A stretch of 39,041 nt of DNA from Fibrobacter succinogenes. GTDB taxonomy: Bacteria; Fibrobacterota; Fibrobacteria; Fibrobacterales; Fibrobacteraceae. Of this stretch, positions 1 through 21,429 are shown one piece after another. The stretch's first letter is position 1. Every line of letters begins with the position of its first letter. The stretch covers positions 1 to 39,041 of the forward strand of contig CADBLC010000001.1 of NCBI GenBank assembly GCA_902795385.1, written 5' to 3'. Under the pieces are notes generated by a model. The model was not told the origin of the DNA. It did no database searches and saw nothing but the letters and a program-made list of their open reading frames with translations. The translations under genes and the position numbers were made by a program.

Positions 1-3000
1 GACATTCGCATGGTTCTCGTTCTCGAGGATAGCCACCGACGTGAGCTTGGGCGCAATGCCGTCGCTTATCTGCTTTTCGGCAGTCTTCACGACACCGCTT
101 TCGCTCATGTAAATCGTCACCTTGCCACTCGGCGCGGTCGTCTCGGGAACAAGGCTATCGTCAAGCAAAAGCATCGCCTCGGAACCCGTAACCAGGCTCG
201 TCGGCTTCACGATAAAGCTCGCCTCGCCACCCGTCGTAGAATCCAAGACAACCAGCACACTATCAAGCTTGACCTTGGTTCCGTCAAACTCGCTGCCCGT
301 AAACTTGATGGACAGTTGGTCACCCTTGGAATTGCAGTTCCCGTCCAGCAAAAGTACGGTCTGCGGCGACGGAGTAGTCGGCTTGGCATAGAAGTACTGG
401 GATGTCGAATCCTCTTCGTCTTCGGCGTCGACGTATATCACAGTAATGGTATCGCCACCCAGCAAGGACACGTTCGGCAGGCTGGTGGTCGCATTCGCGA
501 CAGCGCTCAGCCAATCGCTCTCGAAATAGCCCAGCACTTCGTCCGTGCGCTTCAGGATTACAGAGGTCGAATCCTTGGTGCGGGAGTTCACGAGCTTGAC
601 AAAGACCGTTCCGTGAGAGCGGTTATCCTTGTCGCTCACAACGACCTTGAACTTCATCGGGTTGTCCGTCACAGGGCTCGAGACAGACGAGCCGTCTTCG
701 CGAACAAGCTGAATCTGGCCAAGCGTACGGTCGCCCTTGCTGAACTGCACGTAGTAGGTGCGGTTCACGAAGGCACAGCCGCCATTCTCCTGGCATTCGG
801 AGCACTTGGGATCCGGCCCGGCGAACACGGTCACGTCGACCTTGTTTGTACCGATGGACATCTTGACGGGGATATCCAGCATGTACAAGCCAGAGGAAAC
901 ATCGTACACGGCCGCAGTCTCGAGCTGTTCGGGACTCAGAGCCACGCCGTTCACCCAGATGGAATTGACATGGCCGCTTTCCGTAATGAACGCATTGCCC
1001 CTGAGGTGCATGGTACTCGTAGTAGAGTCAAGCTGGATGTACGAACCGTTCGCGACGTCGAACGGCTTGTCGAACGTCACGGTAATTTCGTAATGAGCCC
1101 TCTTCGTCGTCATTTCCTGGTAAGACGGGCTGAAACCGGATATGAATTCGTCCTTGCGGTAAATCACGATGTAGGGGTTGACCGGAGCGTAGTCGCCATC
1201 ACCGAAGTCCTTGTCGAGAATCGGCATACCTTCGTAATCGGCGCCGTCCACAGCACGTTCGTGAGGAGCCCAGCTCCAGTCGCCGCTGGTGGCGGTCATG
1301 CGTTTTTTCGCCGCCGTACGTAGAGTCTCGCAACCGCCGTTCTGGTAAAGGCCCGAAGAGAAACCGAAGTCGATACGCATACGCGAAGAAGACTTGATTT
1401 GCGTTCCGCCAAGCGGAATCGGGAAATACCATCCGTAAGTACCCGTTGCAGCATCGTAAGTATCGTCCAGGCGAACCGGGACGGAATGGCGCAGGTTATA
1501 GCGTATCATTTCGTCGGCGCTATTGCCCTGGGCATCGACACACGGTTTGTTGAAGCCGGCTTCGTCGTAAGCCTGGCAAATATCTTCGTCAATCAAAAGC
1601 GGGCAGGATCCGGGCTGGTTGTTCTCGCCCGGAACCGGGTTGATGTCCTCGGGCCTTGCCGTAACATACAGGCGCAAGGTGAGGCTATCAAAGGCGCGGT
1701 CCTCATTATTAATAATGTTCACGTTCAAGAAGTCCATACCCGTAAATTCATACTGGTAGGCAAGAACGCTAAAGTCGTACGCAGTCACGGGAGTCGTGAA
1801 CTTGAGCGGAGCTCCGTTGTCGTCTACACACTTCGAGATTCCATTGCTCTCGACGCAGTAGTAGTAGGTCGTCTTTTCCTTGAGTTTCCCTATCTTCACG
1901 TAGTGGAAACTTGTCGGTATCCCGGACACGTCGGCATTCCCCACAATATCGCAGTTGCCGTTCGGAGTTGTCGGGCACTTCATCTGGTCTTTGCTCGTAA
2001 GCACCGTATCCCAGTACACCTTGGATTCATACTGGCCATTGGGCGTATACCACATGATTTCCGCAGAATCGCTCGTAAGGTTACATACCTTCACGTTCTG
2101 GATATCGGCATCACCCGGCGGGCTAAGCAAGGTGGTAAACGAATAGGGCGTCGACGTGCTATCCACGAGCCATCTCGTAGTGTAGGCCTCGCTCCTAGCA
2201 TTGATTGCCACGACCTTGAAGAAGTACGTGGTACCGTTTTTGAGGTCTTTCATGTGGATTTCGTGTTCCACCGCGGGGAGGGAATCCTTGACCACCGTAT
2301 TGAACGGTCCAGTTTCATTCGTGCTGTAAAGAATCATCGCGGGGCCACGGACATCCTGCGAAATCTTGACGATGGCGGAATCGTAACCCACGTAACGGAT
2401 TTCGACGTTTATCTGTGACGGAGCGCGGTTGAGGTCTTCTTCCTTCACAGCCACGGCAGACGCGGCAAGGAACATGGCCGTTCCATCAATACATGTTTCA
2501 GCTTGGAAGTAGTTTTCCCAGCTTCTAGCTCCATCAGGATTGAATATCAAACCAGTCGCGTTTGCACCATCACCACCGGGGTTCCAGTTGGGTTCCGTAT
2601 TCGGGTTGACCGCACCGAAAACGGCACCTACAGGCGGCTTGTACTTGTAACCGGCACCGGGCATGTTCTTGCCCTCGGGGTTAGAAGCTCTGTGGTGCGG
2701 GTGGTGGTGGTTCTTGTCACCGACACCCATCAGGAACGAAAGATCCCATGGGTTAACACCGAGCATGTAATTCAGCTGGTTGATACCCAATTGCTTCATC
2801 TTCTCCGAATTCCAGAACTGCTGGCCTTTTTGCGGGAGCTTTACACCCTCGAGGTCCTTGGTCACGTCGGCATAGGCGAACACGTCGAAGATGTTACCTG
2901 CCTGGTAGCGGTTGTAAATCCAGGTGGACTGCGTCTGCATCTGGTACCACAGCGGGCTCGCGGTAACGTTTCTTGTACCGTCGCTCCAGCTGGGAATGGT

Positions 3001-4758
3001 CACGGAGTTGCCACCCGTCTCGGATCGCGCGGCAACGTTAGACGCCATCGTGTAGGCCACGTTCTCGGCGTACCACAAACGGTCTTCCTTGCCAATGCCA
3101 AAAGCGGCGGCCGTACTGTCGTCCTTCAAAAGCATCTTGTAGAAGCCGTAGAGCGCGTAAGTCTGCACGCTGGCCCAGTCGGTATTGTTTTCCTTGCGGT
3201 TATCTCGGCTGCTAGCGAACCAGCCTCCGCGGAACACGCCCTCGCTCACCTTCCCCGCACCGAGCACGGCATCCTCGACGGCGTCGTCCAGGTACTTCAT
3301 GCCGGAATCGGGATAGGTGCCGTAATGCATGGCGATAGCCGCAACACTAAGGTCGTCGTAGAATGAGTTACCGCCGTTATAGGCCGGAGTACCCCAGGCG
3401 CCGGGAATCTTGTTGTGCGTGTTGTTAGACCTTCCCAGGGCTAACGCCTTGGCAAAATCGTACAAGGCCTTTGCAGCCATCTTACAGGAGTCGGCAAAAG
3501 CCTTGTCGTACGTCGCATAATCCCTACCCAAAATGGAAAGGCCGGCAGCAATCTCGGCCGAGACGTTCGCACCGAGTTCGCCCACGCGGACGTCTCTCTC
3601 GTGCGGACCGCCACGCCCAGTCAATGTTGGCGGAAGTGCGTCTTGGTTCTCGGGCCTGCCCCACCATCCGTGGTCGGCACCGAAGTTTCCAATCGATACG
3701 GCCATGTTGTCGACAACGCCCTTCGCTACCCTGAACGAGCGCAAGAAGTAGTCGGCACCGTGCTTAGCTTCGCGGAGGATATCGGGAACACCGTCGGTAT
3801 TCACCGTCTGCGCATGGTTATAAGCATAATTGTCGTCGTCACGGCTCGGGTTGCTCGCCGCCATCACGGCAAGCACCATGAACGCGTACGCCTGGGTATA
3901 GGATTCCTTCAGGTGGTCACCACAGTCATACCAGCCGCCCTGCAGTTCACCTTCCTTCACGGTAATGCCAGCAACACTGCCACTGCCGATATTGTCTACG
4001 ACGGGGCCCGCACCATCCTTCGTATGGCTAGGGGCGTGGAACCAAGATTCGGAATTACCGCTACGGTTGATTCCGTAGAACTTGATAACGGCGTCGCGGA
4101 CCATGGAATACACGCGGTTGCTGATGATGAAAGTGGAAGAATACTGCTTGCCGACCTTGACGCGCATGCGCTGGTCCGTGGGAAGCCCGGCGAGCTGAGA
4201 AAGGTAACCGACACAGACCGTGCCCGAGGGGCCGTTCTTGCCGACGGTGTAACGGTTCTTGTTATTGGTGGCAGCATCCGTGGCCGCCGTAATCGTCAGC
4301 GAAGACTGGGTTGTCTGGCCCGTAGAAGTGAACGTACCGCCGCCGGCAATCTCGTTACCGTCCAGGTCGACAACGGAGAACGTCTCGCCGCAGGTACCGC
4401 TGGACACATAGTAGAACTGCTTTTCCGGGTCGTCCAGGAGGTAACCCGCCTGGTTAATCCTTATACGGCTGATGCGCATGTCGAGGGCGTCGTGGAACGC
4501 CTGGTTCAGCGTATCCGGAATGAATGCGTTGGGCACAAAGGACTGCGGGACTGCCCCGACCTTCGGAACCGGGTTCCTCTTCCTGGGGTTAGGCAAGAAA
4601 CTGCTAAAGCTCTCTACCGTGCCACCATCATCGGTCGCAATCGTGTCCCACACCATCGGGTACACAGGGCGGATAAGGTCGTAAGGCGTCGGCTGTTCCT
4701 GCTCGACGGCCAGCGAGAGAGTCGCAAAAAACAAAAAGGGTACAACAAAAAAGGGCAT
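1..4758 (-). CDS. GH9 multi-modular cellulase, C-terminus cut by window edge
   Basis: Endo-acting glycoside hydrolase family 9 enzyme (likely cellulase), exported. The frame is open from an ATG at 4758 to base 1 (1586 codons) with no stop, so the C-terminal part is missing. A strong GGAGG lies just upstream of the ATG. Residues 1-17 form a signal peptide. An N-terminal Ig-like CelD_N module (about 95-215, starting RINQAGYLL) precedes the catalytic domain (about 220-780). That domain shows GGWYDCGDH with the acidic pair D278/D281, NPWDLSFLMGVGDKN followed by a His-rich stretch, and a proton-donor candidate E754 in QAETCIDG. Two fibronectin-III-like modules follow (about 790-985). Next comes a beta-sandwich module (about 990-1200) that may bind carbohydrate, then Ig-like modules related to those in the second GH9 enzyme (29525-35371). 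The family assignment is secure; exact substrate and module names beyond Fn3 are inference. Codon use is uniformly GC-ending, like most neighbours. Confidence 0.93.
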   Translation of the reverse strand, partial: MPFFVVPFLFFATLSLAVEQEQPTPYDLIRPVYPMVWDTIATDDGGTVESFSSFLPNPRKRNPVPKVGAVPQSFVPNAFIPDTLNQAFHDALDMRISRIRINQAGYLLDDPEKQFYYVSSGTCGETFSVVDLDGNEIAGGGTFTSTGQTTQSSLTITAATDAATNNKNRYTVGKNGPSGTVCVGYLSQLAGLPTDQRMRVKVGKQYSSTFIISNRVYSMVRDAVIKFYGINRSGNSESWFHAPSHTKDGAGPVVDNIGSGSVAGITVKEGELQGGWYDCGDHLKESYTQAYAFMVLAVMAASNPSRDDDNYAYNHAQTVNTDGVPDILREAKHGADYFLRSFRVAKGVVDNMAVSIGNFGADHGWWGRPENQDALPPTLTGRGGPHERDVRVGELGANVSAEIAAGLSILGRDYATYDKAFADSCKMAAKALYDFAKALALGRSNNTHNKIPGAWGTPAYNGGNSFYDDLSVAAIAMHYGTYPDSGMKYLDDAVEDAVLGAGKVSEGVFRGGWFASSRDNRKENNTDWASVQTYALYGFYKMLLKDDSTAAAFGIGKEDRLWYAENVAYTMASNVAARSETGGNSVTIPSWSDGTRNVTASPLWYQMQTQSTWIYNRYQAGNIFDVFAYADVTKDLEGVKLPQKGQQFWNSEKMKQLGINQLNYMLGVNPWDLSFLMGVGDKNHHHPHHRASNPEGKNMPGAGYKYKPPVGAVFGAVNPNTEPNWNPGGDGANATGLIFNPDGARSWENYFQAETCIDGTAMFLAASAVAVKEEDLNRAPSQINVEIRYVGYDSAIVKISQDVRGPAMILYSTNETGPFNTVVKDSLPAVEHEIHMKDLKNGTTYFFKVVAINARSEAYTTRWLVDSTSTPYSFTTLLSPPGDADIQNVKVCNLTSDSAEIMWYTPNGQYESKVYWDTVLTSKDQMKCPTTPNGNCDIVGNADVSGIPTSFHYVKIGKLKEKTTYYYCVESNGISKCVDDNGAPLKFTTPVTAYDFSVLAYQYEFTGMDFLNVNIINNEDRAFDSLTLRLYVTARPEDINPVPGENNQPGSCPLLIDEDICQAYDEAGFNKPCVDAQGNSADEMIRYNLRHSVPVRLDDTYDAATGTYGWYFPIPLGGTQIKSSSRMRIDFGFSSGLYQNGGCETLRTAAKKRMTATSGDWSWAPHERAVDGADYEGMPILDKDFGDGDYAPVNPYIVIYRKDEFISGFSPSYQEMTTKRAHYEITVTFDKPFDVANGSYIQLDSTTSTMHLRGNAFITESGHVNSIWVNGVALSPEQLETAAVYDVSSGLYMLDIPVKMSIGTNKVDVTVFAGPDPKCSECQENGGCAFVNRTYYVQFSKGDRTLGQIQLVREDGSSVSSPVTDNPMKFKVVVSDKDNRSHGTVFVKLVNSRTKDSTSVILKRTDEVLGYFESDWLSAVANATTSLPNVSLLGGDTITVIYVDAEDEEDSTSQYFYAKPTTPSPQTVLLLDGNCNSKGDQLSIKFTGSEFDGTKVKLDSVLVVLDSTTGGEASFIVKPTSLVTGSEAMLLLDDSLVPETTAPSGKVTIYMSESGVVKTAEKQISDGIAPKLTSVAILENENHANV

Positions 4759-6148: not shown

Positions 6149-8308
6149 TTACATCTTGTAGTACTTCTGCAGGGTCTGTTCCACCTTGCGAATCCCCTGC
6201 ACCGCAAGCGGCACGTCGCCAAGATGGAAGCGAATTTTTCCGGAGCGCCCGTGCATGGCGCTCACCCCGTCCGTATGTACGGAAGCATGGACAAGGTAAA
6301 CAGGCTCCGCCGTGATTTCCGAGGCATTCTTGCCCATGCGGGTCTCGATATCGCCGCCGCCTTGCCAGCTAAGCGCCGCCGAAGGCAACTTGTCGACCGA
6401 TGCCGGGATAGCGTACACGCTGTCTACGGGCAGTTCCTGGAACGCTTCGCCCTTCAGGCGCACGGACACACGGGCGGGGCGCCCGGTAAACAACCGGGAA
6501 ACCTCCTCCTGCGACACGACCGCCACGAAATCGAACGACGACGTGTCCAGCAACATCCCCAGGGAATCGCCCTTCATCACCCACTTGCCCTCGAAATCGT
6601 CGACATCCTCCGAATTCCAGATGCCACCGATTCCCGCCACCATCACCAAGCGGTCACGCTGGCGCTTGAGTTCGTCCAGTTCCTGGCGCAACACCTCGAT
6701 ACGTTTTTCAAGCGGGTGCATGTTCTCGGGAGTCTCGTTCAGCGCGCGGTAGTACTCCTGCAGGGCCTCGTTAATCTCGGAATTCTTCTCTTCCAGCTGG
6801 AACCCGAGTTCCTCGTTTTCCAGGACAACTAGCGTATCGCCACGCGTCACGCGATCACCGGACTCGTGGAAGGCCTTCGCCACACGGCCCGAAGTCGCGA
6901 CAATCGTATTCTCGTACAGCCCGGATTCAAGCACGCCAGGAGCAGTAAACGTATCGGGCACGGGAATGTAGAACAGCGCGCCAAAGACTATCGCGAAGAA
7001 CGATACGGACAGCGACACCGCACGCAGGCGCACACGCATCAGGCCCGGGCTGTAGAAAACGTACTTGAGGAACCTGCCCACGGGCATCACGACCATGGAA
7101 AGCAGGAGCATAGCCCCCATGATGACCGACAGAATCAGGTAGTGCTGCGATATGGCGATAATGAATCCTGTAAAAAGGAAAAAGCGATAAATGGCGCTCG
7201 AAATGCCGTACACCGTATAGATTACAGCCTCGCTCCAGGCCGTAGCGATTTTCTGGGCATCCTGCTTGCGGAAAGCGAAACGTTCCAGCAAGTATTTAAG
7301 GTGCAATACAGAATGCTGCTGCAGGTTGGGCATGTCCAGCAAGTCCGTCAAGATGTAGTAGCCGTCAAAGCGCATCAACGGGTTGATGTTGAACAGCACC
7401 GTAGAAATAGACGACATCACCAAGACATTGTAGGCAATCCCCTTGACAAATCCGCCTCCAACGTTCGCCCAGATGATAAGGGCCACGGAAGCGATAAAGA
7501 ATTCGCAGAGCATGCCCGCCGCACCCACAAACGCCCTGTGACGCTTTTTGCGGAACGACCAGCTCGCGGTAGCATCCATGTACGGGAGCGGAACGAGCAG
7601 CATGAACATGATGCCTATCGTATGCACCTCGCCGCCGTACTTCTTTACCGCGAAGGAGTGTCCCAGTTCGTGGAGAATCTTGACAAGCACGGTGCAGACG
7701 TACACCCAGCCGATATTGGAAGGCGCAAGCAGGCCCTGGGCCTGGTCTTTGAGCGCATCGAAATTCTCTATGCCGAACTTGACCGCAACCGCGATGGTCG
7801 CAAGCCATACGACAAAGAAGAACTTCGAGAAAAACAGCGAACCCACCCACCGGAAACGCTTCAGCAGGGGTTCCGGGTCAAAAATCGGGATACGAAGGAA
7901 GAATATGTTCAAAAGCGAGGACTTGACCTTCTTCTGGGTATTCTTCTTGTCGCGCTCGAAAAGCTTTGTACCGTCCTCCGCACCCTCGTACAGGAGCATG
8001 TTGGCTTGGTAAAGCTGGGCGAGCATCTCGATGACCTCCCCCTGGCCGGGAACGTCTTCGGCGCCGCTGTTCAGCAGGTCGCTCCAGATTTCGCCGACCG
8101 TCTTGTGCATGCCCAAACGCGAGATGAACTCGTATGCGTCGGGAGGCAGGCGATAGTACTTGTTGGTGAAAGGTTCAAAAAGGACGTACCACAAAACGCC
8201 GCGATACATCTGACGGCGCACCCGGACACTGGCTCGGAGAGCAATCCTGCTTCCGCTGAGCCTATACCAGGATTCATGAAATATTTTACGCTGCTGGTCG
8301 AGAATCAT
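6149..8308 (-). CDS. PqqD-like / M50 peptidase / HlyD-like membrane fusion protein
   Basis: Inner-membrane protein of 719 residues, probably part of an export machine. Residues about 25-105 resemble the PqqD/HPr-rel-A fold (FEPFTNKYYRLPPDAYEFI), which in other systems binds leader peptides. Hydrophobic segments start near 155. An M50 site-2-protease-like core carries the zinc motif HELGH (213-217) and the third-ligand motif NPLMRFDGYY with D315, so all expected metal ligands are present. More membrane segments run to about 450. The C-terminal part (about 450-719) is HlyD-like: a lipoyl-type half-motif (ATSGRVAKAFHESGDRVTRGDTL), a helical hairpin (about 505-560), then a second half and a beta barrel. 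It is the last gene of its operon: the ATG lies 10 bases after the stop of the giant gene and has no visible Shine-Dalgarno, which suggests translational coupling. Proteolytic processing or membrane passage of the giant is inference. The AlgE-type or ABC domains of classical systems are absent. Confidence 0.88.
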   Translation of the reverse strand: MILDQQRKIFHESWYRLSGSRIALRASVRVRRQMYRGVLWYVLFEPFTNKYYRLPPDAYEFISRLGMHKTVGEIWSDLLNSGAEDVPGQGEVIEMLAQLYQANMLLYEGAEDGTKLFERDKKNTQKKVKSSLLNIFFLRIPIFDPEPLLKRFRWVGSLFFSKFFFVVWLATIAVAVKFGIENFDALKDQAQGLLAPSNIGWVYVCTVLVKILHELGHSFAVKKYGGEVHTIGIMFMLLVPLPYMDATASWSFRKKRHRAFVGAAGMLCEFFIASVALIIWANVGGGFVKGIAYNVLVMSSISTVLFNINPLMRFDGYYILTDLLDMPNLQQHSVLHLKYLLERFAFRKQDAQKIATAWSEAVIYTVYGISSAIYRFFLFTGFIIAISQHYLILSVIMGAMLLLSMVVMPVGRFLKYVFYSPGLMRVRLRAVSLSVSFFAIVFGALFYIPVPDTFTAPGVLESGLYENTIVATSGRVAKAFHESGDRVTRGDTLVVLENEELGFQLEEKNSEINEALQEYYRALNETPENMHPLEKRIEVLRQELDELKRQRDRLVMVAGIGGIWNSEDVDDFEGKWVMKGDSLGMLLDTSSFDFVAVVSQEEVSRLFTGRPARVSVRLKGEAFQELPVDSVYAIPASVDKLPSAALSWQGGGDIETRMGKNASEITAEPVYLVHASVHTDGVSAMHGRSGKIRFHLGDVPLAVQGIRKVEQTLQKYYKM

Positions 8309-8318
8309 TGTCTATGCA

Positions 8319-11300
8319 TTAACCTACAAAAGCGGAAGCCACAAACTGGCAAGCTTTTGCGGCGTGCAAATATACATAGATAAAGTCATCTTCGCTCGCC
8401 ACGTCCGAGATATTGACCTGATAAGCCAAATCAGTATCCTCTTCGACACTCCTGCGCTTCTTGCTAGAGTCGTCCCAGCTCCACGTAAGTGCCGGCAGAG
8501 AGTTGCCGTCTTCGCTATTCACCATCAGGCTCACCGTCGATGCAGAAGCAATGTTCGAGGCGCCGATCTTGATGCGGACAGTCTCACCTGCTCCCACAGC
8601 AACGAAGCCAGGCATGCCGTCGACCAATTCCACTTCGGTGCTGGATTCAGCCGCATCAGACGACGCAGCTGCAAGAGCCGCAGGGGCTGCCGCCGGAGCC
8701 GGGGCAGGAGTGGTTGCTGAACTTGAGGCTTCCCTCCATAAATCAATTTGAACAACTCCATTTTCTGGTGAATACGTATCTATACCACTTTCAATTGCCT
8801 CATAACTTCTGACATCACCCACTCTTGTAAAGGGGAGACCATTCTGATAAATTATCCTGGATCTACTTCCACCAATCGCAGTATTACACGCCTTTGAAGT
8901 ATACTCAATAGCAGCAACGCCATCAGGAGAAGCCGCAAAATGCAAAAAACCAGTCACTTCAACAGGTAATCCTGTTTCTCCACTATAAATAACAAACTGA
9001 TTTCCTGAAACTTTTACATAATACCCTGTTGTGCTTGGTGTTTCAGACAAATCGTATCGATCTTCACCAACAACCAGCTGCAAACAATTTGTAGAATAAT
9101 TTATTCCATATTCAATACTACCATGAGCATACGCTAATTGGAATGTAGAGGAATTCAAAATGAAGCAGTTATCTAGCCCATAGTATGCCGGATTTTGCGA
9201 GTAATGCTTCAACATATTTACATAGTCTAAACGCCCTGTTATAGGAACCAATTCGTCAGTTGATGCACTATAAATATAAATCTTATTTTTCTCAGCCTTA
9301 TACCAGTAATCGCTACCAGAAGTTTTTGATGTAGAGATATAGCTCACGTCACCGGCTTCGTTTGTAAATCTTAGTGACGCCAAAGACAACTTTGTCAAAT
9401 CAATTTCCGGTCGATCACATAGAATAACACCGCTATTAACCACATCAAAGCCTAATTTGTCACACATAGGGCTATTAAACGCCATTATATCCCCGCTAGA
9501 TTCATCCGACAATAAAATTGGGATGTTCATCATAAAATCAACTTTATCAGCAGGCGATGAGGTTTCAATATCTTGCAACAAGAAAGCAACATCATTGTCA
9601 TCTACATAATTATCCCCTACGTAGACAATCTTTATCTTTTGTATAGAGTTATAATTATTCGAATCAAATTCTTTTACAATCGACGAGCAATAATTTCCCT
9701 TCTCATCAACCAAAAGTATTCCCGAATTTTTATTTCTTTCTTCAAGATCCGAAGTCAGCGGAACAGAAATTTTCACAGAAACTTTACCTTGCGGTTTCTG
9801 AGACAGTTTTATTCCATATTCAAACGTTTCACCTTCACTCATTATCGGAATATTATCAAGGCCGTCTGTTATCAACTCTATGGTTTTCGCCCTATTTTTT
9901 CTCAATTTCTCTATTTGCGTTCGATATTGACTTTCTGTTAAATCCGAGCCAACATAAAGAACATTTTCTCCAGCCTCTAGATCAACGAACATTTTGTTAT
10001 AAAATAATTTTTCACTCCCCATTACATAATAATGGTTCGTTCCCTCTCCACCAAAGAAATGGAATTCATCAATACCTATCGTTTGGAGTTCGCAACAAGA
10101 GGACAATATTGAATCGCATGAATAAACAACATCCTCCAAAGTTGTTGCATAATAATTTAAGGTTGCCATTCGGCATATATACTCACATTTGACATCTCTA
10201 GCATATTCATTTCCTTTTCCCGTAAGGGAGATTAGCCCCTTATTTACAATAAAGTCACCATTTTCATCAACGAAATTTCTAATATTATACGTAACTCCTT
10301 CAAGTCCACCATGCAACGACAATGCAGAATTTGAATGGAGTATTTCAAATACATCCGTACCGGCACCACCTTCTACAAATAACGCATGGGTATTGCCCGA
10401 ATCCAACAAACCTTCGGATGTTTTAATTACGGAATCATTGAAAGAATCAAGCGCATTGACTTTCGGCAATCCATTTTTATACAATCGTCCAATGTTAATT
10501 TCATCATTGCCACCGCCAGCATCAATTGACATGGACGAAAGTGTACTGCTCACCGTAACAACATCATTACCTAATCCGGTTTCCACAGAAATGTTTTCTA
10601 CACCCCTATTTTCTCCGGCGTACCAATAGTTGACTCGTTCCACAGTACCCTTGCCATTATCTTCCGGCATCATACCAATCATGCCCAATCCCTTGTCAGA
10701 TGAGCGAATCAATATATTATCGCCATCTAATGTACCCAAGGCTTTCATGGAATCATTCTTATCGTTACCGGAATCCATAACATTTGTAAAGACGTCTTTA
10801 GAGCCGCCAACAAATTGAACCCTATATGTGTCATTTCCGCTTTGGCCATCAACAAAATCGGAATCATTACCGGCAATAATAGTATCATCGCCACCACCCG
10901 TTTTTGATTTAGCTTCATTGGAAATACCGAATGTTTGGCCTATAGAAACAATGACATCACCAAGAGCTTCCTTCGCACCATCAATAACGCCATTCTTATT
11001 AAACCACTGGCCATCCTTTACAGTTTCTTTTTCATAGTCAGTCCAACCGTCATCACCAAAGATGAAGTCATTGCCGATCCCGCCGTCAAGCGTATCATTT
11101 CCGCGGCCACCGTAAACAATGTCCATGCCGCTACCGCCGTCTATCTTGTCGGAGCCAGCATCGCCATCGATAAAGTCATTTCCGGCGCCACCGGTGATAA
11201 TATCATCACCACCAGTTAATTTCGCTTGGACTTTATCTGTCGCATTCCTACCATCGTCCCCAAAAATGACATCGGCACCATTGCCACCGTCAATTACGTC

Positions 11301-14300
11301 GGAGCCTTTGTTAGAAGGAACCTCACCATATTTATTATCATCTAATTCTTCCCAAGAATTAACACCATCAAGCACATTCCCTATCGAGGACAAAATGGAA
11401 GCATTATTGCTCACAAATTTCTTGGCGAAATCAAACACTCCTATCGTATCCGCCTTGAATTTACCACCATCAGCCGCAGTAAAGAACGGACTGATGTATT
11501 TATCATTGGCATCCACCATGCCCTTCAAATCGTGCGGAACAAGGGTATACGGCAACTGGGCGCCATTAGCATTGTCGCTACGGGCAATTACCATATTCGA
11601 CTTGAACGGCATATCACCAAAAATGACATCCGTGCCATCCCCACCATGAATGGCGTCGTCACCGGAACCACCGTAGATAACATCGTTACCTTGGCCACCA
11701 TCGATTGCATCATCGCCGCCATTTGCGTGAATGAAATCGTTGCCAGCGCCACCATAAATATGGTCAATAGCACCTCCGCCATATACTAGGTCATCACCGC
11801 CATCATCAAAGGAATCATGATGGTCCGCGACATCGAACCCACGAGAATCTCTCGACAAACGGCCATAATCGCCAAAAATGGTACTTTCTCCAGAGCCGCC
11901 AACAATAAAGTCGTTCCCGGCACCACCGAAGATGTAATTCTTCGGTTGAGGCTTTTTCTCATCCTTTATACTTGCGCCCAGTATGACGTCCGTCCCTCCG
12001 GAAGCATTATCCGACGGATACGCAATAGCATACTGCAAGGTTTTCTTCTTTTTACCCTTGGAGTCCGGCGTAAATTTCACATCGCCTTCGTCGCCAAACA
12101 GGTAATTCGTCCCAGAAGAAGCGCCCTTGATAACATCCGTTCCCGATGAGCCAACTACCACAGCGACGTACCCTTCAGCAAGATTCAAACCGCTCAAGTC
12201 AATCGAATCATCGCCATTACCGCCGTAAACAAATATATTGAATTCCGCTTTTACCTTGGAAGAAATCTTTATTTTGTCATTTTCCTCACCGGCATAAATA
12301 CACAGATTCTCTTCATTTACTTTATATTCCCTGTGATTTTTATTTTTACTGTTGTTAAAGATGATATCAGCTTTGTTAGAACCCGTAACAATCACCTCAA
12401 TATCATCTGCGCCATCTTCAGAAAGTTCGGCAACACTGTTCTCCTTGGCAAACTCACCGACATTCACGACAAGGCTATCGCCACTCCGCGTAGCCAAGTT
12501 GTCATGCTCACTTGCCGTTTTAAAGAGGTCAAAAGCGCCACTGCTCCATAACGTCCATTCCTTGCGGTAGAAGAACACATCAAGATAAGCAAAAGCACGT
12601 GCGCTAATAGAGGCAGACACATCGAAGGTGTCTAGCGGATTTAACGACAGCATTTCCGCCATTTCGGTCAAACGGACCTTGCCATCGTCGTTCGGGTCCT
12701 TAAGATCCAAATTCACGTTCAAATTCAAGCCGACATTCACGCCAAATCGGCCTCCGAGGCTGGCACCAGCCACAACACCGGAATGGAAAACCACTTCGGT
12801 AACGTCGTCACCAGAAAGCGGATCCCAGTCAGCCACATAGAAGCCATCAATCAAGGCTGCAACATTCTTGAAGTTCGACTGAGCCCAGCGTTCTATACCA
12901 TAGGTATCGTAACCAAAGCACAAATCAATATCTACGCCAAAGCTGAATCCGACATCGGCGCAGAGAGGGCCGATAATCGGGAAACTCTTACTCCAATCAA
13001 AACTAAATTTGAGCGGTTTCATGTCGAACACAACCAAATCGGCATGTCCACCCACCAAAATCTTCATTATTTCGGTTTCAGGATTATCTATTATCGGGAA
13101 TATCCAATTACCCCCGAATTCGGGTTTCTGAATTTCTGTTTTAGAAGAATCCGCACCAGGAGAAGGCAACATCCATTTTTCAGCGGCACTCTTTACATCC
13201 TCAATCTTATCCGAAATAGCTTCCTTAGCGTAATCTACGTAGGAATCCACATTACCAGCAATTGAAGATACCGTATCGACAGCGCTCTTCAAATCCACAA
13301 AAGATTTCTTTAAATTCAATTTACTCAATTTTTCGGATACAAATTTTTCTGCATCAGAAATCTTTCCGTCAATGAAATCCTGCCCCGCCTTTTTCAAATC
13401 CTCGTCCATATTGAGATTGTCAATATTCTTGATATCCCATGAACCTATATAGATCCCCTTGTTCGTATATTCTTTCAATTTCCCGACCATATTATCAATC
13501 TCAATAATATCGTCAAGGAAACCAAAATTCATTTTCTTCTTGTTGCCGAACTTTTTCACCAAATCGAGAACGGTTATGCGCACCTTACCCGCAGGGAGTT
13601 TATTGAGCACAGGAATCTCGGTCTGGAGGAATTTTATCAAAGGTCGCACAGGGTCAATAACCTTATTTACCTTCTGAATTACGCTGCCAATCGTATTTTT
13701 TACAAAAGAACCACAATCAAAAACGATATCATTGAGCGCAACGGCTTTCAAGTCGCCCATTCCCTTGCCAAAATCCGACGCCCAGCCAACGCTAAGACTC
13801 GTATCAATATGGGGTGCCGATTTAGAATATCCACCTATGCCAAGCGTCATCGGGACATCTAAATTAATTTCCCCTCGCAAGTTTGCCTGAGTAGAAATGC
13901 CAGACAACAGCTCATTCATTCGAATCGTCGTCTTGGCTTTTTTATCATTTTCCCAGTCGTTTAAAGCAACTTTATCACTCTTATCCCCGTCATTCAGGTC
14001 GATTCCCAATATAATCGGCTTGACTTGTCCTGCATCAACTTTAGCCGACATCGCAAGGAATCCAAGCGAGCCTTCAATCGATGCACTCGGCTTTACCGTA
14101 AGCATTATCTTCAGGTCGTCACCAATATGCGCCGTGCCCACAGATTCGCCCTTAACCTTTTGTTCTACATCGCTATAATCTGTTTCAGGATTATTCTTTT
14201 TATCATATCCATTCGACAAAAGGATAAAGGCTCCTTCCTTCTTTGATATACCGAAGCCTATATCCAGCATCATTTTCAATTCCAGTGCTACACCGCCGTC

Positions 14301-17300
14301 TGCGCGAAGACCGAGGCCTGGGAAACCGAGGTCAAAATCGGCATTCTTGTCCAAGGTGTAATTGACGCTAAGACGCAAGTGCCAGTACGCCTCGTCTTCC
14401 GATTCATAGAACTGAATCCCATGATAATACCGATTGAATTCTTTTTGCGCCCACCACGCAGAATTTCCATCACCGCACATTTCAAGGGAGTCTGTTCCGG
14501 TCGCGATATAGTCACACAATATGGTATACAATTTTTCTGTTACGGCATAGGCATTCATGCCATCCGTCTTCTTGTACACATATTTGCGGAGAGGTTCAAT
14601 AAAGTCCGTATTAAGGAAAGAGAGAGAATCACCGATATTTACAATAGAGTCCCCGACAAGAGGAATATGGCGAATATTGCCCTTTACAAGGGCGCTATTC
14701 AAGCTACTCTGCAAGCGACGGACGGTATTGCTCAACCCATCTACAGAGTTCCTAAGCTTATCGAACAGGTTGGTCTGTTTCAATTCAAGATTTCTAACAT
14801 TAGAAAGATCCAATGTCAGCAGGCCTTCCTGGATACCACCATACGCATAGACCTGCCCTGCAGCATCCTTGCAAAGCACCTTTGTTTGCGGCGTAGAGTT
14901 TATACTCGAATTACAATTGAGTGAAATAAGCCCCGCATCTGCGCCATATTTGTAGACATAAAGAGTGCCATTCAAATCCAAATCAAGGTTTTTGCCATTT
15001 ATTTTGGCTTTCAAGGAAATTGAACTATCCTTGCCAGACTGTGATTCAACTTGAAATTCAGCTTGTTTCAGTACATCCTTTCCATCAACTTTTTCAACAG
15101 CATTGACTTCCATGTCTGCACTAATATGCGAAGCTTTGACACTAATGTTCCCCCCAATTATAGGATCAAGTACTTTAAAGCTAATCGCTCCTTCGGCAGC
15201 ATAAATATTTACTTGGCCCGTAAAGGAAATCGTCGCATCAATGTATGCCCTGAGCAGGCTATTCAAACGGAAGTCTTCACGACCGAGATTCAACGAATCC
15301 AATTCAAGAAGGTTGTTTGAAATTTTCTTATTCCACGTAAACGTCAAACGTAGAACTGTCTCCTTAACGTTTCTCTCTACTCCATTCTCCTTAACTACCC
15401 GCACCCTATAGTCGTATTTGGCCGTCACACCCATGCCAATTTCTTTCTCGATGTAATCAATAATTTCCTGTACATTAGAGCCAGACTTTATCCGTTGGAA
15501 ATAATTATCAAGTTCCTCGAACTTATTCCGAAGCCCCATTATTTCCAGAATGCTCTTGCCAAGAATCGGCAACTGAATTTTATCAAGATTCGATTGTGCT
15601 TTCGCGCCAAAGAAATAAGAGTCCCATTTTGCGCACATTTTACTGCTAAAATCATCGTACAAATGCGCCATCGAATAGTTCTTATGATGGAAACCACATT
15701 CGGCAGTATTCAACGATTCCTTTTTCACAAGTTCTTCGTTCGGCATCCACTCCATACGACCTGCACGAATAACTGCTTTAGCCGAAAAAGCGACATCAAT
15801 ATCTTTCATGGTCGGGTCCACTTTAACTTCAAACTTTGGTGTTCCAAACCCAGCCAAAAAACCATAATTATAAGTCGGTTCTTTTATTCCCTTGAGACGA
15901 GTTTTTGTTTTATCCGCACCAATTGTTGTGACACAATTGAGCCCAGTTATATTTCCTTTAATTCTTTCGCCAAACACACCATAACGCGCCGCAATATTGA
16001 TATTTCCATTAACAATTACATTGGCGATTGTCAAATTAAAATTCTGGAACAACGGAACCATCGCATCATCTTCAATAGCGTCATCAATCAAGTTCGCGTC
16101 AACAAAGAACTCATCTCTCTCTTTTTCAGGATCACTGCCGTATTCGCCACACAACCCAAGCATCGACGCTATCGTGAACCCATTAATATCGCTAATTTTC
16201 TGGATACGGTATTTGATTTCATATTCTTTTTTCGCAACAATCTTCAAACCATCAACGGCAAAATATTCTACTGCATCCTTGTCGCCCTGTTTTTCGCCTA
16301 TCGCCTTATTCAATTTAAGGACAATTTCTTGAAGAATCTCATCAACCGTACAATCTTTGACTGCAGCATTCTTTTTCTGGCAAGCGTCAACAATCGAAGA
16401 TAAATCCAATTCATATTTTTCTTGATGTTCCTTAGATTCTTCATGAACATTCACGCACACTTCTATAGCGGACGTTTTCAAGACATCCTTGTATTCAATC
16501 GATTCACTTGGAGTCGAAACCTTAAATAAACCAGACGCATCAACCTTTTCAACAACTGGATAGAAGCCTAAAAGTTCCGCATCAGCAATATTTCCAAAGT
16601 AGATTGTAAAATTTTCAACCGAACGGAAACACAATCTTCCGTCTTTAACAGAAACCTCTACGTCGGGAACATCAAAACCTTCTTCATGCGATTCCTTAAT
16701 ACGTGCATTCATGTATTTTGCAAGAGCATGCAAGGACTTCATCTCCACCATTTCGGCACTGTCAAAATTAACATTCAACCGATCGTCATCATCAAAAAGA
16801 ATATCAACATAAACCTTCGGGCTTTCATCAGCATCGATATTCTGGAAATAGGTAATATCAACCTTATCGGAATAGATTTCCTTATACTTTAAGATTTCGT
16901 ATACTGTTTTTTCACCTTCCTTATTCTGCGAAAAACTATAGAAGCCAAGCCAATTCAGAACGGATTCATCAGTACAGCCGACAACAAATTCCTTTGACGA
17001 TTTAAAGCTAATTTTGTCATTATGCGAAATTACATAAAGACCAACATTGTCAGCACTCCATTCAAAGCCCTCATTGAGCGCATCTTGAAGGATTTTTGCG
17101 GCATCGGACGCCCATTTTTTTGATTCAAAATCGCTTTTCTCTAACTTAATAGTCTTTTTCTTTCCATCCACTTCAAAAATCAATTCAAAAGACGAAGGAA
17201 CTTCTGCCCACAAATCCTTTTCACCAACTTTAGTGCCAAACTTCGCAGAGGCAATTTTTTCATCCATCTGGACTTTTTTCGTCTCATCATGAGAAGTTGC

Positions 17301-19838
17301 GATTACAACGTGTTCAATCCATCTTTTATCCGCAAATGAAGAATAAGTTGTAAAGCCCAACCACTCTGCAAACTCTTTGTCATAAAAATCAATCGAATAA
17401 TCTTGTAAAGAAACAAAACGAATCTGGCCATTGAACGACTCAACCATGAGCTGGGCCGGCTCATAGACAATTCCCTTTTCTGCGTCTTCAATTTCCCAAC
17501 GGAATTTTGAATTAATCATTTCTTGCAAGCAAGAGGCTATATCCCCAACACTCGATGCAGAATTGAAATAACCAGGAGCAAACTCTATTTCACAAGACTC
17601 ATTGCCCACAGTAACCGTCATTTTTGCAGAATTATTATAACGTTCGGGAGGAAGTTCATTGGAAACCCAAATCGTCTTCACGTTGTCTTTTGTAAAGGTA
17701 ACTGAATTGTTCCATTCTTCAATTTGTTTACCGTCTTTTAAAAGTACAACTTTTAAGTGTTCCTTAAAATCATTGCCGATGGATTCTATTACAGAATCAT
17801 CATTTGAATCAATCAATACTGCAAGGTATTCATTGTTTAATGCCACAACCTTTACATTCTTGACGTCATCATTTTTACTACGGCCCAAGACCGATGTCAA
17901 AAGTGAGGCTAGTCCTTCAATGTCATTCGCAACAAAGTTTTTTGTCTTCTGATCAAGATATTTATAATCAATTTTAGCTTTATCCGCATTTGCATTCCAC
18001 TTTATAACAAAGCCATAATTTGGCGTAACACCATCAAATTCCGGATATTTTGACAAATCGAGTTGAACCGCAGAGCTAGAAGCACTATACAAAACATAGG
18101 AACATGTATCAGCATTTACGCATGAAGTAAATCGGTTTCCACACTGACCCTTTACATAATTCGCATATGTAGAAAGATCAGACCATCCACCATAATAATG
18201 ATCCATCTTTTCGGCCACAATTGCATTCGCACCAATAATGGATCCGAGTTGTTCGTCGTATTGGCCTAAACCCAATTTATCTAATTCACTAGTACTCTTC
18301 GCCTTTTCGGATTCAACAAAAGGAACGAGCAATTGGAAACTTAACGTAGCCCTAGAACTTACGGTAACAGAGGGTATTTCCAGTACCTCCACATTAAAGA
18401 AATTTTCCAACCATTCCTTCGAAAGGGCGACCGAAGAATCCTTCTCGGAAATAACCAATTCCACAGGGATGCTTATGCCTTTAGCGTCAACAGAAATCCT
18501 CTTGTCTTGACGAACTTCATTATTCCAGTACTTATTGTTCTTAAGGCGCGTTACTAATTCTTGGAGAGTTGCAGGAGGTTCATTGATGATATTGGACAAC
18601 AAATCCGACAAATTCAGAAGACTATGGGCATTTCTCGCTAGACACCCACTGAAGTCTACATTATTGTCATAATAATCCCCACTCTGGATAGCGGACAATT
18701 TGGACGATATTCCCTGGAGTTTCTCCAGAACCTTGCCCATGGAGAATGTATTAAAACGTTCGATTGAAGTGTGATTCCATTTACCCTCGCTATTTTCATC
18801 AAACGACAGAGCCCTTTCGTATGTGTATTCTTGATTTTTGACTCCACTGACAAACGTATCACCAATCTTTTTTATGTTATAGTGCAATTTTGCCCCAAAG
18901 CCGTCATCAACCTCGTTAGCCGTAATTAAGTCGCCAACTGATTCTTCCCACTTTGAAGATATCGTCCATTTAGAGACGATATTCACTAACGAATTCGAGA
19001 CATTCGTTTCTGACAAGCCTAGAACGCCATATTTCGCTTCAAATTCGGGCGAGCTAGCCTCCTTGAATTTAGTGGAAAAAGTTGCTACAGACTCCAAATC
19101 AACCTTATTCTCGGCACGTCCGTCAAGAACAAATGTGAATTCCAGCTTTTTGCTATATTCCGAAAAATCAAAATCCGATTCTATTTCAACATTTGTACTT
19201 GACAGATCTGCGGTAAATAAATCCTTAGCTTTTTTTATATCAGTGTCTTTCTTGTTATAGCGATCTAATTGTGATGAATAATTAGAAGACCATGCAACTG
19301 GATAATCCGCATTCAAACGAGTAAAAGAGCAAGATGCATCAAATACGATTTCACCATTTGAATTCAAATTGGCTTCATACGTAATATCAGCTTTAAAGTA
19401 CTTTAATTCAGGGTGAAGAGCCCCATTCTTGACCTTCTCTTGCAACTCTGCGGCACTAATCTTTTTCCCATCAGTGGGCAATTTCTTTTGAATATCGCTC
19501 TTGATTGCGTCTATTATCACTTTGGAGCTATCGAGACCGTACTCTCCATAGTATGTATTGTCAAATTGAACCAAATCCGATATTTTCGCGCGTTCATTCG
19601 TTGTTGTATTCTCATTCTTCACATAAAGCGCGGTAATAAACTGATTCACATTCGCGTTAGATTGCAGCGTTGACGAACTCCAAAGAGGCGCACTTGAAAG
19701 ACATTCGAGTTCATTAGTCCAATCCGACACAGAATAGGCGGTCGAAGCATCCATCAAAAGACGAGGTTCCAGGGCCTCAATCTTGTATTTCTTTCCAACA
19801 TACTTTTTCATAGCATTCCTTTTTTGCTGCTTCGACAT
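8319..19838 (-). CDS. Giant LEPR-XLL / RTX calcium-binding surface or secreted protein (3839 aa)
   Basis: Very large, probably exported adhesin-like protein. There is no Sec signal peptide. The N-terminus is basic and holds LEPRLLMD at 23-30, the LEPR-XLL motif known from the starts of huge repetitive exported proteins. Residues about 737-1232 contain four diverged tandem repeats ending in LGF/LGL. A canonical EF-hand loop (DPNDDGKVRLTE) occupies 2381-2392. RTX (hemolysin-type) Gly-Asp repeats of the GGxGxD kind span about 2537-3005 and bind Ca2+ in known proteins. A Calx-beta-like module (about 3330-3435) follows. An Ala/Pro-rich linker near 3700 precedes a C-terminal beta domain of about 110 residues. 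AGGAG upstream supports the ATG at 19838, but an in-frame ATG at codon 10 also has an AAGGA before it. The gene sits 21 bases after a FISUMP lipoprotein gene and 10 bases before the M50 fusion gene. It is AT-richer than both export operons, except at its 3' end. Confidence 0.9.
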   Translation of the reverse strand: MSKQQKRNAMKKYVGKKYKIEALEPRLLMDASTAYSVSDWTNELECLSSAPLWSSSTLQSNANVNQFITALYVKNENTTTNERAKISDLVQFDNTYYGEYGLDSSKVIIDAIKSDIQKKLPTDGKKISAAELQEKVKNGALHPELKYFKADITYEANLNSNGEIVFDASCSFTRLNADYPVAWSSNYSSQLDRYNKKDTDIKKAKDLFTADLSSTNVEIESDFDFSEYSKKLEFTFVLDGRAENKVDLESVATFSTKFKEASSPEFEAKYGVLGLSETNVSNSLVNIVSKWTISSKWEESVGDLITANEVDDGFGAKLHYNIKKIGDTFVSGVKNQEYTYERALSFDENSEGKWNHTSIERFNTFSMGKVLEKLQGISSKLSAIQSGDYYDNNVDFSGCLARNAHSLLNLSDLLSNIINEPPATLQELVTRLKNNKYWNNEVRQDKRISVDAKGISIPVELVISEKDSSVALSKEWLENFFNVEVLEIPSVTVSSRATLSFQLLVPFVESEKAKSTSELDKLGLGQYDEQLGSIIGANAIVAEKMDHYYGGWSDLSTYANYVKGQCGNRFTSCVNADTCSYVLYSASSSAVQLDLSKYPEFDGVTPNYGFVIKWNANADKAKIDYKYLDQKTKNFVANDIEGLASLLTSVLGRSKNDDVKNVKVVALNNEYLAVLIDSNDDSVIESIGNDFKEHLKVVLLKDGKQIEEWNNSVTFTKDNVKTIWVSNELPPERYNNSAKMTVTVGNESCEIEFAPGYFNSASSVGDIASCLQEMINSKFRWEIEDAEKGIVYEPAQLMVESFNGQIRFVSLQDYSIDFYDKEFAEWLGFTTYSSFADKRWIEHVVIATSHDETKKVQMDEKIASAKFGTKVGEKDLWAEVPSSFELIFEVDGKKKTIKLEKSDFESKKWASDAAKILQDALNEGFEWSADNVGLYVISHNDKISFKSSKEFVVGCTDESVLNWLGFYSFSQNKEGEKTVYEILKYKEIYSDKVDITYFQNIDADESPKVYVDILFDDDDRLNVNFDSAEMVEMKSLHALAKYMNARIKESHEEGFDVPDVEVSVKDGRLCFRSVENFTIYFGNIADAELLGFYPVVEKVDASGLFKVSTPSESIEYKDVLKTSAIEVCVNVHEESKEHQEKYELDLSSIVDACQKKNAAVKDCTVDEILQEIVLKLNKAIGEKQGDKDAVEYFAVDGLKIVAKKEYEIKYRIQKISDINGFTIASMLGLCGEYGSDPEKERDEFFVDANLIDDAIEDDAMVPLFQNFNLTIANVIVNGNINIAARYGVFGERIKGNITGLNCVTTIGADKTKTRLKGIKEPTYNYGFLAGFGTPKFEVKVDPTMKDIDVAFSAKAVIRAGRMEWMPNEELVKKESLNTAECGFHHKNYSMAHLYDDFSSKMCAKWDSYFFGAKAQSNLDKIQLPILGKSILEIMGLRNKFEELDNYFQRIKSGSNVQEIIDYIEKEIGMGVTAKYDYRVRVVKENGVERNVKETVLRLTFTWNKKISNNLLELDSLNLGREDFRLNSLLRAYIDATISFTGQVNIYAAEGAISFKVLDPIIGGNISVKASHISADMEVNAVEKVDGKDVLKQAEFQVESQSGKDSSISLKAKINGKNLDLDLNGTLYVYKYGADAGLISLNCNSSINSTPQTKVLCKDAAGQVYAYGGIQEGLLTLDLSNVRNLELKQTNLFDKLRNSVDGLSNTVRRLQSSLNSALVKGNIRHIPLVGDSIVNIGDSLSFLNTDFIEPLRKYVYKKTDGMNAYAVTEKLYTILCDYIATGTDSLEMCGDGNSAWWAQKEFNRYYHGIQFYESEDEAYWHLRLSVNYTLDKNADFDLGFPGLGLRADGGVALELKMMLDIGFGISKKEGAFILLSNGYDKKNNPETDYSDVEQKVKGESVGTAHIGDDLKIMLTVKPSASIEGSLGFLAMSAKVDAGQVKPIILGIDLNDGDKSDKVALNDWENDKKAKTTIRMNELLSGISTQANLRGEINLDVPMTLGIGGYSKSAPHIDTSLSVGWASDFGKGMGDLKAVALNDIVFDCGSFVKNTIGSVIQKVNKVIDPVRPLIKFLQTEIPVLNKLPAGKVRITVLDLVKKFGNKKKMNFGFLDDIIEIDNMVGKLKEYTNKGIYIGSWDIKNIDNLNMDEDLKKAGQDFIDGKISDAEKFVSEKLSKLNLKKSFVDLKSAVDTVSSIAGNVDSYVDYAKEAISDKIEDVKSAAEKWMLPSPGADSSKTEIQKPEFGGNWIFPIIDNPETEIMKILVGGHADLVVFDMKPLKFSFDWSKSFPIIGPLCADVGFSFGVDIDLCFGYDTYGIERWAQSNFKNVAALIDGFYVADWDPLSGDDVTEVVFHSGVVAGASLGGRFGVNVGLNLNVNLDLKDPNDDGKVRLTEMAEMLSLNPLDTFDVSASISARAFAYLDVFFYRKEWTLWSSGAFDLFKTASEHDNLATRSGDSLVVNVGEFAKENSVAELSEDGADDIEVIVTGSNKADIIFNNSKNKNHREYKVNEENLCIYAGEENDKIKISSKVKAEFNIFVYGGNGDDSIDLSGLNLAEGYVAVVVGSSGTDVIKGASSGTNYLFGDEGDVKFTPDSKGKKKKTLQYAIAYPSDNASGGTDVILGASIKDEKKPQPKNYIFGGAGNDFIVGGSGESTIFGDYGRLSRDSRGFDVADHHDSFDDGGDDLVYGGGAIDHIYGGAGNDFIHANGGDDAIDGGQGNDVIYGGSGDDAIHGGDGTDVIFGDMPFKSNMVIARSDNANGAQLPYTLVPHDLKGMVDANDKYISPFFTAADGGKFKADTIGVFDFAKKFVSNNASILSSIGNVLDGVNSWEELDDNKYGEVPSNKGSDVIDGGNGADVIFGDDGRNATDKVQAKLTGGDDIITGGAGNDFIDGDAGSDKIDGGSGMDIVYGGRGNDTLDGGIGNDFIFGDDGWTDYEKETVKDGQWFNKNGVIDGAKEALGDVIVSIGQTFGISNEAKSKTGGGDDTIIAGNDSDFVDGQSGNDTYRVQFVGGSKDVFTNVMDSGNDKNDSMKALGTLDGDNILIRSSDKGLGMIGMMPEDNGKGTVERVNYWYAGENRGVENISVETGLGNDVVTVSSTLSSMSIDAGGGNDEINIGRLYKNGLPKVNALDSFNDSVIKTSEGLLDSGNTHALFVEGGAGTDVFEILHSNSALSLHGGLEGVTYNIRNFVDENGDFIVNKGLISLTGKGNEYARDVKCEYICRMATLNYYATTLEDVVYSCDSILSSCCELQTIGIDEFHFFGGEGTNHYYVMGSEKLFYNKMFVDLEAGENVLYVGSDLTESQYRTQIEKLRKNRAKTIELITDGLDNIPIMSEGETFEYGIKLSQKPQGKVSVKISVPLTSDLEERNKNSGILLVDEKGNYCSSIVKEFDSNNYNSIQKIKIVYVGDNYVDDNDVAFLLQDIETSSPADKVDFMMNIPILLSDESSGDIMAFNSPMCDKLGFDVVNSGVILCDRPEIDLTKLSLASLRFTNEAGDVSYISTSKTSGSDYWYKAEKNKIYIYSASTDELVPITGRLDYVNMLKHYSQNPAYYGLDNCFILNSSTFQLAYAHGSIEYGINYSTNCLQLVVGEDRYDLSETPSTTGYYVKVSGNQFVIYSGETGLPVEVTGFLHFAASPDGVAAIEYTSKACNTAIGGSRSRIIYQNGLPFTRVGDVRSYEAIESGIDTYSPENGVVQIDLWREASSSATTPAPAPAAAPAALAAASSDAAESSTEVELVDGMPGFVAVGAGETVRIKIGASNIASASTVSLMVNSEDGNSLPALTWSWDDSSKKRRSVEEDTDLAYQVNISDVASEDDFIYVYLHAAKACQFVASAFVG
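10825..12230 (-). repeat. RTX nonapeptide repeat region inside the giant protein
   Basis: About twenty Gly/Asp-rich units with the pattern GGxGxDxhx are visible in several blocks, for example GGAGNDFIHANGGDDAIDGG and GGQGNDVIYGGSGDDAIHGG, separated by longer inserts. Such repeats form a Ca2+-bound parallel beta roll in known RTX proteins. At the DNA level they give recurring ACCGCC/ATCATC tracts, which could be mistaken for direct repeats. Confidence 0.92.
12663..12698 (-). other. EF-hand calcium-binding loop in the giant protein
   Basis: The 12-residue loop DPNDDGKVRLTE (residues 2381-2392) matches the canonical EF-hand spacing: acidic or Asn at 1, 3 and 5, Gly at 6, a hydrophobic residue at 8 and Glu at 12. 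It lies about 150 residues before the RTX block and adds a second kind of Ca2+ site. Confidence 0.7.
16145..17630 (-). repeat. Four diverged tandem protein repeats (about 120-135 aa each)
   Basis: Four consecutive segments of the giant protein share a layout. Each has an N-terminal beta pair, an amphipathic helix of the type ASCLQEMINSKF, KILQDALNEGF, ALAKYMNARI or EIVLKLNKAIG, a strand pair such as GQIRFVSLQDYSIDF or GRLCFRSVENFTIYF, and an end in WLGF, WLGF, LLGF or MLGL. Approximate spans are 17335-17630, 16920-17210, 16550-16830 and 16145-16500. The pattern loosely recalls the flagellin/hook IN motif, but I do not recognise a named family. Identity is low, so the boundaries are approximate. 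Confidence 0.65.
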
Positions 19839-21047: not shown

Positions 21048-21067
21048 TCTATCCCCATACAAAAATG

Positions 21068-21105: not shown

Positions 21106-21429
21106 CTAGGCCTTCTTGGTCTCATTGTTTGCCGCCGTATTGGGCAACCCGATATCTATCGTGCCGTACTTGGCCTCGTAGGCGCGCAGCGTGGCCGAAA
21201 GCATAATGGCGAGGCGTTTCGCCGTAAACGGGGTCATCATCACGCGTTCAGCAATATCTACGTTCACCTTTTCCTGGCCCATCTGCCAGGCATTGTTCAC
21301 GCCGAGAAGCATAATCACTTCTTCACGGCCGGCAATCACGTTAGTGGCATTGGCATAAAGATTCTTCATATTGGTATCGTTCCAGACGACAGTCGACTGG
21401 GCTCCATTCTTTTCATTATTTTCGGCCAT
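21106..21429 (-). CDS. DUF3467 family small protein
   Basis: A 107-residue cytoplasmic protein with no signal peptide. The ATG at 21429 is preceded at good spacing by GGAG; a longer frame beginning with TTG (adding MERY) places that GGAG inside the coding region, so I prefer the ATG. The core (WNDTNMKNLYAN, then MMTPFTAKRLAIMLSATL, then YEAKYGTIDI) matches DUF3467, a short family related to gas-vesicle-type or secretion-associated small proteins whose function is not established. It lies between the two export operons, on the same strand as the giant-protein operon and separated from it by a hairpin. Its position suggests a regulatory or chaperone-like part in the same system, but nothing in the sequence proves this. 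Confidence 0.8.
   Translation of the reverse strand: MAENNEKNGAQSTVVWNDTNMKNLYANATNVIAGREEVIMLLGVNNAWQMGQEKVNVDIAERVMMTPFTAKRLAIMLSATLRAYEAKYGTIDIGLPNTAANNETKKA

Follow-up and report, generated by a model that had tools for sequence, protein, structure and literature searches.

A PqqD-M50-HlyD fusion protein of Fibrobacter succinogenes as candidate inner-membrane hub for the secretion of LEPR-XLL giants

Introduction

How might an RTX protein of several thousand residues be exported from a locus that encodes periplasmic adaptors and a TolC-family channel, and which part would be played therein by a membrane protein combining PqqD-like, M50 and HlyD segments? This question is raised by a stretch of 39,041 nucleotides from Fibrobacter succinogenes (GenBank assembly GCA_902795385.1, contig CADBLC010000001.1), referred to here in its entirety as the window. 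A SecA/M50/GAF-HlyD locus was already described from genomes by Kamneva, Poudel and Ward in 2015, who named no substrate and termed the role of the locus "completely unknown" (PMC4452313).

Architecture of the fusion protein

The fusion protein (P0001, 719 aa) is encoded on the minus strand at positions 6149-8308 by an open reading frame with ATG start and without internal stop codons. In a Pfam scan, HlyD_2 (5.8e-5), Peptidase_M50 (2.5e-4) and, at residues 41-105, PqqD (0.015) were detected, and each of the three segments is matched by profiles or structures. The single chain of three segments proposed in the initial annotation is thus confirmed. Hydropathy indicates approximately seven membrane segments, which would place the PqqD-like domain in the cytoplasm and the HlyD part in the periplasm. 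The AlphaFold model of the complete protein is of modest confidence (pLDDT 71, pTM 0.38).

PqqD belongs to the RiPP recognition element type of domains. The PqqD-like domain of the fusion comprises residues 19-105 (7994-8254, minus strand), and separate scanning of the N-terminus gave PqqD as the sole Pfam family (8.4e-4). Comparison of a profile of this domain with PDB sequences returned PqqD 3g2b as top match (2.9e-4), with the lasso-peptide B1/RRE protein TfuB1 in second place (0.032). The Pfam score of the fusion itself, 20.1, is slightly below the gathering cut-off of 23.4, and PqqD is matched in 14 of 16 homologues, at best with 1.1e-7. In the model, residues 21-100 form beta strands followed by three helices with pLDDT mostly between 72 and 84. 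Hence, the HMM check bears out the PqqD-like segment, which is regarded as a candidate leader reader that would bind the leader peptide of a substrate.

At the C-terminal end, residues 448-719 (6152-6967, minus strand) constitute a HlyD/MacA-type periplasmic adaptor domain resembling MacA and MexA in Foldseek comparisons (1e-11 to 1e-12). While the HlyD identity of the proposed adaptor arm is supported by these matches, its supposed reach towards TolC is not, as the modelled hairpin is short (helices 499-525 and 527-552). Likewise, the fusion can no longer be called unusual: full-length homologues occur in Fibrobacterota, Spirochaetota and Alphaproteobacteria, and the architecture is widespread and mostly described already. 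At NCBI, several homologues are labelled "PqqD family" and several of their neighbours "LEPR-XLL domain-containing".

The locus and its giant protein

The fusion gene starts only 10 bp downstream of the stop codon of a gene for a giant RTX protein, the presumed substrate (3839 aa; 8319-19838, minus strand), which is matched by HemolysinCabind (1.3e-26) and partially by NF033943. On the same strand, domain scans identified a FISUMP-domain protein with lipoprotein-like N-terminus upstream of the giant (19860-21062), a type of gene that precedes other giants too, as well as a DUF3467 protein of 107 aa (21106-21429; PF11950, E 8.5e-16), which is conserved across the cluster loci. Four genes are transcribed divergently from these on the plus strand, encoding a carboxypeptidase-regulatory-like lipoprotein (21707-23179) kept in the clusters of Fibrobacterota, a HlyD/RND-type periplasmic adaptor of 266 aa (23186-23986; TIGR01730, 5.7e-36), a TolC-family outer-membrane channel of 492 aa (23983-25461; OEP, 2.6e-32) and a GAF-TM-HlyD adaptor of 479 aa (25454-26893; GAF, 5.7e-7; HlyD_D23, 7.5e-18). 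Across phyla, the conserved locus consists of a LEPR-XLL RTX/Ig-like giant, DUF3467, GAF-HlyD, PqqD-M50-HlyD, a truncated SecA paralogue, HlyD and TolC, all of which are present in the window except for SecA. Consequently, the idea that one protein alone could do the job has to be abandoned, the fusion being one of at least six parts, while the proposed link between giant and fusion is strongly supported by an adjacency that is conserved across phyla.

A role of the DUF3467 protein as SecB-like chaperone was not supported: its model is poor (pLDDT 59), a PDB match with E<=0.001 was not obtained and the sequence profile yielded nothing significant. The cluster is flanked by genes for large GH9 glycosidases with fn3-like domains (1-4758, minus strand; 29525-35371, plus strand), and a PAS histidine kinase (35461-37812) followed by a sigma-54-dependent response regulator (38214-39041) possibly controls nearby genes. 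Judged by its FISUMP proteins and its relatives, the cluster belongs to Fibrobacter. A PHROGs search gave no match.

RTX repeats as found in the giant are typical of substrates of ABC-dependent export, and the GAF domains hint at regulation. One could therefore envisage that the giant exits via an ordinary ABC type 1 system and that the fusion is a regulator acting by regulated intramembrane proteolysis. However, those window proteins that were scanned include neither an ABC exporter nor an anti-sigma factor, and a match to the HlyB family above cut-off was found in none of eight genomes searched, whereby a HlyB-type exporter was also rejected as motor. Moreover, the fusion bears an adaptor domain, and this explanation is judged very unlikely.

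The LEPR-XLL leader

The N-terminus of the window giant, MSKQQKRNAMKKYVGKKYKIEALEPRLLMDA, is matched by the LEPR-XLL model (NF012209, over cut-off), with the leader motif IEALEPRLLMDA at residues 20-31 of the giant (19746-19781, minus strand). Fibrobacter giants generally carry leaders of the LEPRLMMDA type, and in alphaproteobacterial giants located beside the fusion a start rich in basic residues is followed by LEPRVLLNAD, FEPRVLLSAD, MEPRVLLSADP, LEPRLLLSAD or IEPRILLSADP. Within the first 70 residues of the giants examined from Fibrobacter and Alphaproteobacteria, no hydrophobic signal core was found, and inspection of the C-termini across phyla by eye revealed no obvious common motif. Common to the giants is thus an N-terminal leader in which a Sec-type hydrophobic core is absent, a feature compatible with a reader of the PqqD type.

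The association between leader and fusion was surveyed in 61 Fibrobacterota genomes, 10 of which contain the fusion. A LEPR motif in an open reading frame of at least 1000 aa occurs in 7 of the 10 genomes with M50-HlyD compared to 1 of the 51 others. The one fusion-less genome with such a motif (G018) is 88% complete and gave no match to the housekeeping SecA either.

Further LEPR motifs deserve mention. The genome of the window contains a second LEPR giant of 5310 aa (G000:C8:330-16262, L039) with a FISUMP-type gene upstream, which is a probable second substrate. At G006:C38:28771-28815, a LEPR motif lies in an 8227-aa open frame whose contig differs from that of the fusion gene. In Fibrobacter genomes G007, G029, G003, G005, G020 and G032 (L014, L016, L017, L018, L019 and L020, respectively), LEPR leaders open short or broken frames, some of them in genomes without the M50-HlyD fusion; these look like decayed or silent starts of giant genes.

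The M50 core

The membrane core of the fusion contains a HELGH zinc site at residues 213-217 (7658-7672, minus strand) and, in the context NPLMRFDGYY, the distal zinc ligand D315 (7364-7366, minus strand). Both the HExxH motif and the distal aspartate are located within membrane helices, corresponding to the pattern of M50/site-2 proteases, and the M50 part matches the sequence of MjS2P (3b4r) with 0.004. The zinc-protease site is indeed intact: each of the residues H213, E214, H217 and D315 is unchanged throughout the 14 aligned homologues, the most distant of which is 22% identical. This site may serve in cleavage of the leader.

Kamneva et al. suggested that SecA acts as ATPase and that the pore is functionally completed by the membrane helices of M50 (PMC4452313). 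Along these lines, the M50 part could represent a pore or scaffold without a working protease, the leader being merely a targeting tag. A mere pore, however, would not need the four residues that are retained down to 22% identity, which renders this explanation rather unlikely.

A different alternative arises from the similarity of residues 49-411 to the daptide protease model NF041824 (1.1e-42) and from a match to NF058609 (9e-8), according to which the fusion would mature and export a small RiPP-like peptide of the daptide or epipeptide type, with the giant as mere neighbour. Yet both scores are far under the curated cut-offs (146.6 vs 300 bits for NF041824, an equivalog model, and 32 vs 225 for NF058609), no RiPP enzyme turned up in the scanned window proteins, and fusion and LEPR giant occur together in different phyla. 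Hence, this possibility appears very improbable.

Distribution of the fusion and the SecA paralogue

In most Fibrobacter homologues, the fusion gene is directly followed by a gene for a SecA paralogue of approximately 650 aa, in which the DEAD, preprotein-binding and second nucleotide-binding domains are kept while SecA_SW is not matched. Its similarity to E. coli SecA ends close to where the helical scaffold begins, and most of this scaffold, including the two-helix finger, is missing. In a phylogenetic tree, these paralogues separate from housekeeping SecA as a lineage of their own with full support (100/100). The paralogue of the window genome is found in the same MAG on another contig (C122:2770-4740) and scores below all SecA2 equivalog cut-offs, e.g., 440.5 vs 930 for TIGR03714. 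In the closest relative, RUG11357, the SecA gene adjoins the M50 gene. Since the C122 SecA (82% identity) and the fusion (83%) are equally diverged from this adjacent pair, C122 plausibly originates from the same organism as the window.

Co-occurrence of both proteins is pronounced: the paralogue is present in 9 of the 10 fusion genomes and in 0 of the 51 fusion-less ones (Fisher 6e-10, a descriptive value as the genomes are related), and in the tenth fusion genome the contig stops just past the M50-HlyD gene. Genome G005 contains two copies of each. In a collection of 72,556 plasmids, the top 12 records for M50-HlyD (H1-H12) and for the SecA paralogue (H51-H62) are the same plasmids. The paralogue gene is split into two frames on a Rhizobium johnstonii plasmid (L076:3429-5413), and an in-frame TAG is found in that of G031.

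Clusters of another class, here termed class B, occur on Citrobacter, Variovorax and Azospirillum plasmids in the order giant-TolC-HlyD-HlyD-M50HlyD, and no SecA paralogue lies beside them. Their leaders read LEARYMFDAA or LESRQLFDGAA, following the pattern LE[AS]RxxFDxA. The Citrobacter cluster is present in 24 of 5,426 E. coli genomes, where it is mostly plasmid-borne. With class B lacking an adjacent paralogue, the fusion is not accompanied by SecA in all cases. Thalassospira combines a LEPR giant with M50-HlyD, and SecA is not nearby. IncHI RSP proteins were considered as class B substrates and discarded, as the respective papers credit the type IV system of the plasmid for RSP export and TolC is unmentioned.

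Proposed mechanism

With high confidence, the fusion protein can be assigned to a secretion system of LEPR giants and SecA paralogue. Its function therein is probably that of an inner-membrane hub in the ABC-less, type-1-like secretion of LEPR-XLL giants. In the complete mechanism, which this judgement is meant to include, the cytoplasmic PqqD-like domain would capture the RTX giant by its basic leader, while an ATP-driven push would come from the SecA paralogue, whose chain ends after the second nucleotide-binding domain. For crossing of the inner membrane, the M50 core would serve as passage or as its gate, and it may cut the leader close to the LEPR motif. Finally, the HlyD part of the fusion, together with the HlyD and GAF-HlyD adaptors, would build a periplasmic conduit to TolC. 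Leader binding, pore, cleavage and the order of action are deduced components of this scheme, with cleavage being less certain than the whole.

More tentatively, and with somewhat less than even confidence, these systems could represent a distinct route for giants, in which a LEPR leader is read by PqqD and cleaved within the membrane, a minimal SecA drives passage through HlyD-TolC without any ABC transporter, and a sister class resides on enterobacterial plasmids. If the proposed hub function is true, the LEPR-XLL motif would gain a function, and an exit path would be at hand for multi-thousand-residue proteins that possess neither a Sec signal nor a HlyB-type exporter. The secondary-SecA locus of Kamneva et al. 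thereby acquires candidates for both substrate and signal, along with residues that can be tested.

Comparison with known systems

Type 1 secretion systems (HlyB-HlyD-TolC) likewise employ a membrane fusion protein as adaptor, a TolC-family channel and an RTX substrate. In contrast, the present locus has no ABC exporter, its substrate carries an N-terminal leader, and a dedicated SecA paralogue is the likely motor. With the daptide and YydH-LiaK M50 proteases, the fusion shares the PqqD-like domain and the M50 core covered by NF041824, while it differs in its score far below cut-off, in its additional HlyD domain and in having a giant instead of a peptide as substrate. SecA2 of Gram-positives and mycobacteria is comparable in being an additional SecA protein that has the DEAD motor and the preprotein-binding domain and probably serves special substrates, whereas the C122 paralogue is truncated, without SecA_SW match, under all SecA2 cut-offs and found in a Gram-negative context.

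Resemblance is also seen to the locus of Kamneva et al., which comprises GAF-HlyD, M50-HlyD, HlyD, a secondary SecA_DEAD and sometimes an OEP gene, again without ABC transporter (PMC4452313). Methylobacterium extorquens AM1 is reported to possess such a GAF/M50/SecA_DEAD/HlyD operon. Its GAF-HlyD, M50-HlyD and HlyD trio is found together in the window (25454-26893, 6149-8308 and 23186-23986, respectively), and the secondary SecA_DEAD, absent from the window, is located on the other contig of the same MAG and is adjacent in relatives including RUG11357. PqqD, LEPR and DUF3467 do not occur in the main text of that study (PMC4452313), and no paper joining leader, PqqD, DUF3467 and SecA locus was found in the open-access papers searched. 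Hence, the fusion itself is already known, while the present analysis contributes the joining of leader, PqqD domain, DUF3467 and SecA locus as well as the extension to Fibrobacterota and Spirochaetota.
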